A stretch of DNA of 47,532 nt. Origin: Deltaproteobacteria bacterium (lineage in GTDB: Bacteria; Desulfobacterota; Desulfomonilia; UBA1062). A program made the position numbers and the translations under genes. Below the pieces are notes generated by a model that made no database searches, was not told where the DNA came from, and was given only the letters and a program-made list of their open reading frames with translations. The DNA is taken from NCBI GenBank assembly GCA_022703355.1, contig JAKLDU010000002.1, forward strand, positions 1 through 47,532. Direction: 5' to 3'. Below, one piece after another: positions 16,124-19,577 of the stretch (position 1 is the first letter of the stretch; each line of letters begins with the position of its first letter).

Positions 16124-17410
16124 ATGGCGCACAAAGCTCTCCGGTCAGGCTACGCGCTCCTGGCGGACAGGCTGAACCGCTTCCCCCAGGGCGCCCCGCC
16201 CGCCGAACTCCTGTTCAGGATCCTGAAGGTGCTCATGTCCGAGCAGGAGGCGGGGCTCGTGTCCCGCCTGCCCGTCAGGCCCTTCACCGCGGAGCGGGCG
16301 GCAAGGGCCTGGGGCACGGGGCCCGGCGAGGCCCGAAAGACCCTCGATGCGCTTGCGGACAGGGCGGTCCTGGTGGACTTCGAACGCGAGGGCGTCACGA
16401 CGTACTGCCTCCCTCCGCCCATGGCGGGCTTCTTCGAGTTCTCCCTCATGCGCGTGCGCAACGACATCGACCAGCAGGCCTTGAGCGAGCTCTTTTACCA
16501 GTACCTGAACGTGGAGGAGGGCTTCGTGAGGGACCTCTTTGTCCGGGGGGAGACCGGGCTCGGGAGGCCCTTCGTCCACGAGCCGGCCCTGTCCCCGGAA
16601 AACAGCGTGCACGTCCTGCCCTACGAGCGCGCCTCCGAGATCATCAGGCAGGCGCCCTTCCGGGCCGTGGGGCTGTGCTACTGCCGGCACAAGATGGCGC
16701 ACCTGGGGCGGGCCTGCTCCGCGCCGCTCGACATCTGCATGACCTTCGGCACGGCAGCGGGCTCACTCGTCAGGCACGGCTTCGCCCGGCAGGCGGATGC
16801 GGGGGAGTGCCTCGACCTGCTCGCCCAGGCATACGAACACGGCCTGGTCCAGCTCGGCGAGAACGTGCGGGAGCGGCCGAGCTTCCTGTGCTCCTGCTGC
16901 CCGTGCTGCTGCGAGGGCCTGCTCGCCATGAAGCGCTTCCCCGGCGAGATCCCCGTGCACACCACGAACTTCATGCCCAGTGTCCGGGGGGAGCTCTGCA
17001 CCGGGTGCGGCCTGTGCGTGGGGGCCTGCCCGGTGGGCGCGGTCGGGCTCGCCGATGCGCCGGGGCCGGGGGGGGACGCGCGGAAGAAGGCGTGCGTGGA
17101 CGAAGGGCGGTGCCTGGGGTGCGGCCTGTGCGTGCGCGCCTGCGCCCGGGGGGCCGTCGCCCTCCTTTCCCGGGAGCCCAGGGTCATCACCCCCCTCAAC
17201 GGGGCGCACCGGATCGTCCTCATGGCCATCGAGCGGGGCACCCTGCAGCACCTGATCTTCGACACCCACACCCTGTGGAGCCACCGCGTCCTCGCCGGGG
17301 TGCTGGGGGTCATCCTCGGGCTGCCCCCGCTCAAGCAGGCCCTGGCGAGCAGGCAGGTGAAATCGAGGTACCTCGAGACCCTCATCAGGAGGGTCCCCGG
17401 CCTTTCCTGA
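16124..17410 (+). CDS. Cysteine-rich protein with winged-helix-like N-terminus and two [4Fe-4S] ferredoxin motifs
   Basis: A 428-residue protein. Residues about 27-95 look like a winged-helix domain (RILKVLMSEQEAGLVSRLP...AARAWGTGPGEARKTLDALADRAVLV). The middle part has CYCRHKMAHLGRACSAPLDIC (C185, C187, C198, C205) and an extraordinary CSCCPCCC cluster (256-263). Two bacterial ferredoxin motifs follow: C292-x2-C-x2-C-x3-C302 and C330-x2-C-x2-C-x3-C340. The C-terminal helical part has a hydrophobic segment (about 390-410). Proteins of this layout occur in anaerobic deltaproteobacteria, with electron transfer or redox sensing as the likely job; the function is not established. It appears monocistronic. 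Confidence 0.75.
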   Translation: MAHKALRSGYALLADRLNRFPQGAPPAELLFRILKVLMSEQEAGLVSRLPVRPFTAERAARAWGTGPGEARKTLDALADRAVLVDFEREGVTTYCLPPPMAGFFEFSLMRVRNDIDQQALSELFYQYLNVEEGFVRDLFVRGETGLGRPFVHEPALSPENSVHVLPYERASEIIRQAPFRAVGLCYCRHKMAHLGRACSAPLDICMTFGTAAGSLVRHGFARQADAGECLDLLAQAYEHGLVQLGENVRERPSFLCSCCPCCCEGLLAMKRFPGEIPVHTTNFMPSVRGELCTGCGLCVGACPVGAVGLADAPGPGGDARKKACVDEGRCLGCGLCVRACARGAVALLSREPRVITPLNGAHRIVLMAIERGTLQHLIFDTHTLWSHRVLAGVLGVILGLPPLKQALASRQVKSRYLETLIRRVPGLS

Positions 17411-17578: not shown

Positions 17579-17869
17579 TTGGACGCGTTGACAAAGAATG
17601 ACATAGTCGAAAACATTGTCATGAACCTGGGTATCAGCCACAAAGAGGCCTATGACGGCGTAGAGACCTTTCTCGAGATCATCAAGGAGAACCTCGAGAA
17701 AGGCGAGGACGTTTCCCTGTCCGGCTTCGGGAAATGGTCGGTGAGGAGCAAGCGGGAGAGGAGGGGGCGCAACCCCAAGACCGGCGAGGAGATCTCTATC
17801 ACCCCCCGGCGCGTGGTGTCCTTCTCCCTGTCGAACGTGCTCAGGGCAAAGCTCGAAGGAAAGAAGTAG
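17579..17869 (+). CDS. Integration host factor / HU-family DNA-bending protein (IHF alpha-like)
   Basis: A 96-residue nucleoid protein from TTG at 17579, with AAAAGGGAG about 6 nt upstream. The start is set by family alignment: members begin just before the LTKNDIVENI helix. The core LTKNDIVENIVMNLGISHKEAYDGVETFLEIIKENLEKGEDVSLSGFGKWSVRSKRERRGRNPKTGEEISITPRR shows the DNA-binding beta arm with the conserved RNPKTG tip, where Pro intercalates into DNA. The sequence is closer to IHF alpha than to HU, but subunit identity is not certain. An upstream in-frame ATG (17504) would give an atypical extension. It bends DNA for recombination, replication and sigma54 promoters. Confidence 0.93.
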   Translation: MDALTKNDIVENIVMNLGISHKEAYDGVETFLEIIKENLEKGEDVSLSGFGKWSVRSKRERRGRNPKTGEEISITPRRVVSFSLSNVLRAKLEGKK

Positions 17870-17937: not shown

Positions 17938-17959
17938 AAGGCCCATGACCATGGGCCTT
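17938..17959. terminator. Bidirectional hairpin between convergent IHF and selenoprotein genes
   Basis: AAGGCCCATG (17938-17947) and CATGGGCCTT (17950-17959) form a perfect 10-bp inverted repeat in the gap between two convergent genes (ends 17869 and 17968). There is no long T-run on either side, so it is a strong structure of probable terminator role. Confidence 0.6.
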
Positions 17960-17967
17960 CAGACCCC

Positions 17968-18174
17968 TCAGGACCCCCCGTACCCCACCTGCACCCTGCC
18001 GTCCTCCACCACCACGGGGACCTGCCTTTTGCCGCCGGAAAGCTCGAGCATCTCGTCGAGCTTGTCCCGGTCCCGCTTCACGTCGAAGTACTGCGCCCTT
18101 TCCCCGTAGGCCGACCTGGCCTGATCGGTGTAGGGTCAGCCGCCCTTGCCGTAGATGAGCACCTTCTTTTCCAT
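17968..18174 (-). CDS. Small glutaredoxin-like selenoprotein (UXX-star type) with in-frame UGA as Sec13
   Basis: A 68-residue protein if the TGA at 18138-18136 is read as selenocysteine: it begins MEKKVLIYGKGG, then U13-P-Y-T-D, and continues through AQYFDVKRDRDKLDEMLELSGGKRQVPVVVEDG to a real TGA at 17970-17968. The beta-alpha-beta pattern, the U-P-Y-T site (glutaredoxin CPYT) and the cis-Pro element QVPVVV are those of a thioredoxin fold. A very good ribosome site (GGGAGGA, 8 nt before ATG 18174) precedes it. Coding character continues unchanged across the UGA. A SECIS-like hairpin follows the UGA. It matches what I recall as the UXX-star (seleno)protein group, redox proteins of unknown substrate found in anaerobes. 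The alternative is a pseudogene with a Cys-to-stop change, made unlikely by the hairpin. Confidence 0.82.
18102..18138 (-). promoter_or_regulatory. SECIS-like hairpin directing UGA recoding
   Basis: Starting 13 nt after the UGA, AGGCC (18122-18118) pairs with GGCCT (18112-18108) around the five-base loop AGGTC. The loop contains the GGU characteristic of bacterial SelB-binding hairpins; the E. coli fdhF loop is AGGUCU. A lower CCC/GGG stem (18135-18133 with 18105-18103) can extend it. The distance from UGA to loop, 18 nt, fits the bacterial rule. Confidence 0.7.
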
Positions 18175-18228
18175 ACCGCTTTTCCTCCCTTGCCCATGGG
18201 TTTTGGGAATGCAACCCTTCGGAATATT

Positions 18229-18446: not shown

Positions 18447-19577
18447 ATGCAGGGAGGTTTCTTGCCGGACGCATTCTTTGCACTCCTGGTGGATTTCGTG
18501 GCCTTCGGGGCAGGGTTCTCCCTCGTCTTCGCCCTCGCCCAGCTTTTCAGGAAAGACCCCGGCCTTTCCCACTGCCTCAATTTCCTGGTTTTCACAGGCA
18601 ACAGCCTCATCCAGCTCATCGTCGTCCTCAAGGCGCGGGGCACCGTCCAGGAATACCCCCTGGTCTTCTTCCTCTCCCTGTCGGCGCTCTTCTTCATCGG
18701 GCCGGCGAACTACCTCTACCACCATACCCTGCTGAACCCGGGGCAGCCGGTGCCGGCGAAGCTGAAGGCGCAGTTCGTGCCCGCGGCCCTGGCGGTCCTG
18801 TGCGGGCTCCTCTATCAGCTTCTCCCGGCAGGCACGAGGAGGGACTGGCTGGCCGGGTACGTCAGCTCGCCCCTTACCCAGTGGCCAACCGTCATCCTGG
18901 CCCTCGGGGTGGTCTTCATCTTCGCCTGCTTTCTGGTCATGACGAAGCTGGCGCTCACGGTCCTGAACAGCCGGAATATCCGGGCGCAGGCGCGCATCAT
19001 CCTGGCGGCCTTCCTTTCCACGCTGGTGTCCATCGTCCTCATCTCCCTGGGCTTCATTCTCGGCTCCGACCGGACCCTGGTCGCCGGCGGGGCGCTCGTG
19101 ACGCTCATCAACCTCTCCATGTTCTTCTCGAACATGCGCTATCCGGACTTCTACCGGCTGGTGGAGAGCGAGATCAAGAAAACCAGGTACGAGCGCTCGC
19201 TCCTCAAGGGCCTCGACACCGAACTCGTCAACGACCGGCTGGGATACCTCATGGGCAAGGAGCACATCTACAAGGACTTCGACCTGAGCCTCGAAAGCCT
19301 GGCCCGGCAGCTCTCCATCACCCCCCACCAGCTGTCCCAGTTCATGAACGAAAGGCTCCGCACCAGTTTCCGCCGCTACATAAACTCCTACCGGATCGAG
19401 GAGGCGAAGAAGATCCTCGCCAGCGATCCGGACAGGAATATCCTCACCGTCTGCTTCGACGTCGGCTTCAACTCCAAGTCCACCTTCAACCAGAGCTTCA
19501 GGAAATACACGAACCAGACACCCTCGGAGTTCCGCCAGGAGCACCAGGCGAAGGGCCCTGAAAGTTCCGATCTATAA
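18447..19577 (+). CDS. Membrane-embedded AraC-family transcriptional regulator
   Basis: A 376-residue protein. The N-terminal half (about 1-225) has seven or so hydrophobic segments, for example FVAFGAGFSLVFALAQLF, LVFFLSLSALFFIGPANYLY, VILALGVVFIFACFLVMTKLAL and IILAAFLSTLVSIVLISLGFIL. The C-terminal 100 residues form an AraC-type double HTH (FDLSLESLARQLSITPHQLSQFMNERLRTSFRRYINSYRIEEAKKIL...ILTVCFDVGFNSKSTFNQSFRKYTNQTPSEFRQEH). It probably senses a membrane-soluble or envelope signal and regulates the acyl-CoA enzyme operon that starts 245 nt downstream. The start at 18447 is chosen by the GGAGGG 11 nt upstream and the position of the TATAAT box. Confidence 0.9.
   Translation: MQGGFLPDAFFALLVDFVAFGAGFSLVFALAQLFRKDPGLSHCLNFLVFTGNSLIQLIVVLKARGTVQEYPLVFFLSLSALFFIGPANYLYHHTLLNPGQPVPAKLKAQFVPAALAVLCGLLYQLLPAGTRRDWLAGYVSSPLTQWPTVILALGVVFIFACFLVMTKLALTVLNSRNIRAQARIILAAFLSTLVSIVLISLGFILGSDRTLVAGGALVTLINLSMFFSNMRYPDFYRLVESEIKKTRYERSLLKGLDTELVNDRLGYLMGKEHIYKDFDLSLESLARQLSITPHQLSQFMNERLRTSFRRYINSYRIEEAKKILASDPDRNILTVCFDVGFNSKSTFNQSFRKYTNQTPSEFRQEHQAKGPESSDL

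Follow-up and report, generated by a model that had tools for sequence, protein, structure and literature searches.

A small glutaredoxin-like gene of UXX-star selenoprotein family 1 with two probable selenocysteine codons, missed by a standard open reading frame scan

The stretch of DNA analysed here (the window, 47,532 nt of contig JAKLDU010000002.1) raises the question of whether a short frame broken by an in-frame TGA can be a gene, and where such a gene would end. The original prediction placed at 17968-18174 a hidden thioredoxin-fold selenoprotein with selenocysteine (Sec) in a U-P-Y-T site, encoded by 68 codons containing a single TGA. It did not name the strand; translation of the plus strand is meaningless, and the real frame lies on the minus strand. 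Read from 18174 to 17968 with UGA as U, the frame begins MEKKVLIYGKGG-U-PYT, ends VQVGYGGS, shows no frameshift and contains one TGA within its 68 codons, at codon 13. Both the proposed start and the ribosome site held (Table 1), and an AGGA, GGAG or GAGG core lies at most 16 nt from the start in 39 of the 44 genes compared below. The end point did not hold: downstream of the TGA at 17970-17968 the sequence continues GGG-GTC-TGA, which would append the tail U-G-V before a stop, so that the frame would run to 17959. As had been foreseen, the standard list of open reading frames with a 40-aa minimum does not contain it. Judged from its sequence, the locus is a real and easily overlooked gene for a tiny glutaredoxin-like selenoprotein. 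The best explanation, to which we would give roughly nine chances in ten, is a 71-residue protein of UXX-star selenoprotein family 1 with two selenocysteines and no cysteine.

Table 1. Position, strand and nature of the features predicted at and around the selenoprotein gene (window coordinates)
Feature	Position	Strand	Remark
Predicted UXX-star family 1 gene, 71 aa, Sec13 and Sec69	17959..18174	minus	NF041114 110.5 bits
Predicted true stop codon, TGA	17961-17959	minus	two codons past UGA69
Ribosome-binding site, GGGAGG	18184..18189	minus	9-nt spacer to ATG 18174-18172
UGA codon 13, putative first Sec (U-P-Y-T)	18136..18138	minus	glutaredoxin helix-1 active-site position
UGA codon 69, putative second Sec	17968..17970	minus	TGA in 60/60 genes read
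SECIS 1, candidate apical hairpin AGGCC-AGGUC-GGCCU	18108..18122	minus	within coding region
SECIS 2, candidate hairpin AAGGCCCAU-GGUC-AUGGGCCUU	17938..17959	minus	model R1 33.3 bits
IHF-alpha-like gene	17579-17869	plus	flanks selenoprotein gene
AraC-type regulator	18447-19577	plus	other flank of selenoprotein gene

The gene belongs to a family that is already on record, a name which the original prediction had overlooked. The profile NF041114, "UXX-star selenoprotein family 1" (cut-off 72 bits), was matched by the 68-aa frame at E 6e-31, and Pfam Glutaredoxin (PF00462) was also matched over its cut-off, at E 2.5e-7; the glutaredoxin-like similarity claimed for both sides of the TGA is thus present and far beyond chance. 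With the tail codons added to the 68-aa frame, the NF041114 score goes up from 106.5 to 110.5 bits and the aligned part of the profile widens from 1-68 to 1-70, and the whole profile (1-70 of 70) aligns to residues 5-71 only if the frame crosses the second TGA. The protein shares with the family this whole-profile match, the UxxT motif (U13-P-Y-T), two Sec and the C-terminal Sec-x-x-stop, and no feature distinguishing the window copy was found. We infer from the name and the profile that "UXX-star" stands for Sec-x-x-stop, and a stop two codons after TGA69 together with this ending sets the gene at 17959-18174, with 71 residues. The related profiles for UXX-star families 2 and 3 and the HUGP/GUXX-star fusion (NF041211, NF047338 and NF045501) scored 48.8, 54.1 and 52.0 bits, below their curated cut-offs of 100, 97 and 325, and the protein is therefore not a member of these. 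Glutaredoxin 3 and NrdH-type proteins (TIGR02181, PF00462; PDB 3grx, 1h75) have the fold and the VP (cis-Pro) site in common with it, but TIGR02181 reached 28.7 bits, far under its cut-off of 90. Moreover glutaredoxins carry CPYC where this protein carries UPYT, so that the CxxC active site of a classical dithiol glutaredoxin is missing; the window protein has no Cys, and its chain stops at the point at which glutaredoxins start their last helix.

The accessible part of a 2026 review lists a "Distant Grx-like protein 1 (UXX-star selenoprotein family 1)" with NF041114, UxxT and two Sec (PMC13188914), and the same protein name is entered as UxxT in the part consulted of PMC9312934. The review cites Haft and Tolstoy 2025 as the naming paper and PMC2398784 for the family, the available text of the latter yielding no passage that names it. 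No functional study of UXX-star family 1 was found in the literature searched.

Matches to NF041114 over the cut-off occurred in 100 of 395 sampled genomes of the phylum. For the comparison 44 genes were used, namely 15 from the same taxonomic family, 4 from named Deltaproteobacteria and Syntrophus MAGs and 25 from across the phylum, the window's own gene (L025) included; 40 of the 44 entered the protein alignment (A2). The same-family search gave 20 places over the cut-off, of which 15 were taken. Five loci (L035, L036, L041, L042 and L043) were excluded as a sister form with TGA at both sites and no stop two codons on. L037 (below the cut-off, with Trp at site 1) and the remaining sub-cut-off matches were excluded as other or decayed glutaredoxins, and L054 (35% identity) was set aside too. 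A further 16 genes, selected for having fewer than two TGA inside the profile match, were all read, which brings the genes read to 60, the window gene included. In one genome of the genus a tandem of two family 1 genes was seen (L023 and L040, on the same contig about 425 nt apart), each with two UGAs. The sister form, which comprises the five loci named above and L100-L102, has an insert ahead of the C-terminal site and reads LPLFGGT-U-P/S/A-V/I; UGA and hairpin are kept at this site, again without a stop two codons on.

The two sites behave differently in this set. Of the 44 genes, 38 have TGA and 6 have Cys at position 13, and of the 16 further ones 5 have TGA and 11 have Cys there, giving 43 Sec and 17 Cys among the 60; homologues with Cys in place of Sec, by which the original prediction proposed to check itself, do exist, and exchange of U for C is found where frame decay would have spoken against a gene. 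The second site is TGA in all 44 and in all 16 further genes, a count of 60 out of 60 made on genes found via the family 1 profile, by which Cys69 forms filed in other families could be missed. Sec/Cys exchange is thus present at site 1 and absent at site 2 among the genes read, and it is the putative Sec69, not Sec13, that is invariant. Among the Cys13 loci the stem or loop of SECIS 1 is changed in L050 and L052 and intact in L051, as if the exchange of Sec for Cys were recent.

Regarding the protein itself, no Cys occurs outside position 13 in 43 of the 44 genes. The AlphaFold2 model (40-row alignment) has a pLDDT of 92.6 and shows the strand and helix order of a glutaredoxin minus the last helix. 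Sequence profile, Foldseek and structural re-alignment all gave glutaredoxin 3, NrdH and related proteins as the nearest solved structures, with TM up to 0.74 for the glutaredoxin/NrdH-type neighbours in Foldseek and Z from 9.3 to 7.6 among the listed re-alignment matches, in which the tail (residues 68-71) was hardly aligned. These matches also include GST-type folds, and a shared fold is no proof of function. The glutathione-synthetase domain PF02955 was found in 0 of 24 same-family genomes and in 9 of 14 control genomes, which by this one marker makes a glutathione partner unlikely.

In the proposed mechanism SelB with Sec-tRNA-Sec would bind each hairpin in turn, and UGA13 and then UGA69 would be read as Sec. 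Readthrough of UGA69 would append U-G-V, with termination at the next UGA, and a ribosome that leaves UGA69 unread would release a 68-aa form. Sec13 would occupy the place of the attacking Cys of glutaredoxins, without a Cys or Sec partner at +3, and Sec69 would lie on a short tail in place of the C-terminal helix. The two selenols might then form a diselenide/diselenol redox couple, or serve jointly as ligands for a soft metal or metalloid, in neither case with glutathione. That they work as a pair is a reading we favour slightly. The invariance of Sec69 set against Cys13 in 17 of 60 genes, the general lack of other Cys and the missing PF02955 lead to the more tentative proposal that Sec69 and not Sec13 is the functional core of a cysteine-free selenol-pair protein acting in diselenide redox chemistry or metalloid transfer.

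One branch of this explanation can be taken alone, as a selenol carrier of metal or metalloid which is not a redox enzyme, with Sec69 as the essential ligand and Sec13 or Cys13 as the second. The pattern of Sec69, Cys13 and absent further Cys just given is in its favour, and metal or other substrate binding by the Sec of UXX-star proteins is proposed in the part seen of PMC13188914. Nevertheless the predicted fold is that of a redox protein, and no gene related to metals adjoins in the window, where past the AraC-type regulator there follow an acyl-CoA dehydrogenase, ADC-like and SDR genes and a PaaK-like ligase. The genes that recur around this gene in the family (glyS, a dGTPase-like gene and a PaaK-like ligase) are uninformative on metals, and we consider a carrier role by itself rather doubtful.

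In 12 of 14 same-family loci the selenoprotein gene is followed, at a distance of about 40 to 480 nt, by the dGTPase-like gene in convergent orientation (L023 and L040, which adjoin on one contig, share the same one), and in 7 of 14 it is preceded on its own strand by the PaaK-like gene; most of these stretches are only about 3.2 kb long, and further genes could lie beyond. In the window other genes intervene between the selenoprotein gene and these neighbours. We see in them a shared gene order, and no function is drawn from it. The window also encodes at 16124-17410 (plus strand) a protein whose C-terminal half holds a 4Fe-4S dicluster domain and whose N-terminal part is long; no NCBIfam match was found for it at 1e-10.

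A simpler account of the locus would accept a single Sec: UGA13 is recoded, the TGA at 17970-17968 is a real stop, as the original prediction had it, and the codons for G and V and the hairpin behind them are incidental or belong to a terminator. This needs one recoding event fewer, and 68 residues already span most of the fold. Against it, a stop is found exactly two codons past the second TGA in 44 of 44 genes, and all three stop codons are used (TGA 17, TAA 15, TAG 12). The first tail codon is GGG in 24, GGC in 7, GGT in 5, GGA in 4, GCG in 2, GCC in 1 and AGA in 1, and the second GTG in 12, GTA in 11, GTT in 9, GTC in 8, ATC in 2, ATA in 1 and ATT in 1; they differ mostly at synonymous positions (Gly 40/44, Val 40/44). 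Some of the 16 further genes have a longer or ill-defined tail, for example L087, L090 and L100-L102, which lack the stop two codons on. In addition, the NF041114 profile itself includes the tail, two Sec are given for the family in the consulted part of PMC13188914, and the Cys13 loci L059, L061, L069 and L050-L052 retain UGA and hairpin at site 2.

Bacterial SECIS elements are hairpins close behind the UGA, with a G starting the apical loop. The AGGUC-loop hairpin that had been predicted was found, with 5 bp, at a distance of 18 nt from the UGA. The five pairs are intact in 16 of 16 near relatives with Sec13 (the window gene included), and covariation is weak, a compensatory change appearing in two of the 16 rows at the same single pair. 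Folding energy alone does not set it apart (z -1.4, matched by 19 of 200 shuffles). What escaped the original prediction is a second and stronger hairpin (loop GGUC on a stem of 9 bp, 17 nt behind the UGA; z -2.4, equalled by 3 of 200 shuffles), which overlaps the predicted stop codon by its final base and extends into the 3' region. In the 44-row alignment both sides have changed at 8 of its 8 pairs. The proportion of paired cells is 85.1%, against 60.2% in shuffled and 31-37% in slid versions, and double changes occur in 111 cells, where shuffles give 37.8 on average; the shuffles are uncorrected for relatedness, the slid versions preserve it, and the results agree. By a simple rule (a stem of 7 bp or longer and a G at the first or second loop position) 34 of the 44 genes have a hairpin behind the second TGA (L022 and L083 being among those without), against 3 of 109 TGA codons that end long open frames. 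At site 1 a hairpin of at least 6 bp was present in 16 of 44 genes against 8 of 109 controls.

No Rfam model reached its gathering score in the window, so that the SECIS call rests on our own alignment. Model R1 recovered in the window only the known SECIS 2, the next best score being 9.1 bits, and in the genome gave one weak additional SECIS 2-like match (E 0.98). An intrinsic terminator would be expected to show a run of at least four T further downstream; this occurs in 7 of 44 genes, and the 37 hairpins without it led us to reject SECIS 2 as a terminator for most of them, while that of L034 may double as one. Covarying SECIS-like hairpins thus support the selenoprotein reading, chiefly at the second site. 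The single-Sec account is, with all this, very improbable; most likely the TGA at 17970-17968 encodes a second Sec instead of ending the frame, and Sec is in all probability inserted at both sites.

Insertion of Sec requires its machinery, and the refuting condition set with the original prediction (no selAB/selC, or frame decay) turned out largely to its advantage. The genome (80% complete, 242 contigs) has SelB (342.4 bits, cut-off 242.25) and tRNA-Sec (75.2 bits, cut-off 47; anticodon TCA in ARAGORN). SelA gave no match in this 80% complete assembly, and SelD gave only sub-cut-off ones (65.9 bits against 125). The other genomes of the genus have SelA and full-score SelD in 7 of 7 cases each; in the same taxonomic family 17 of 24 genomes have SelA and 19 of 24 have SelD at full score, with the window genome among the misses. 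We read the absence of selA and selD as an assembly gap. In the 19 same-family genomes where SelD matched at full score, its gene itself contains UGA in 19 of 19. FlpD was considered as a second, independent Sec protein, and the single FlpD match in the window's genome has no TGA inside. That the locus is a decayed glutaredoxin gene or a chance frame with a nonsense mutation and no Sec insertion, to which the missing SelA and full-score SelD could point, is hardly credible against the same TGAs kept in relatives across the phylum, the intact frame, the SelB and tRNA-Sec and the complete counts in the genus.

The hidden selenoprotein of the original prediction is thus supported by NF041114, PF00462, Sec/Cys exchange, SelB, tRNA-Sec and a SECIS-like hairpin, with the amendment that its single Sec very probably becomes two. 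The comparative evidence supports two UGAs under coding constraint, with a hairpin behind each, in a putative glutaredoxin-like fold. For annotation this means that a standard ORF scan would lose such a gene twice, since codon 13 breaks the frame and codon 69 gives it too early an end, the latter even in the original prediction, which had spotted the first Sec. The family is widespread in the phylum. Moreover, the combination of an invariant C-terminal Sec with an exchangeable first one predicts which residue does the work, and if this is true the family would use a selenol-pair chemistry unlike that of glutaredoxins.
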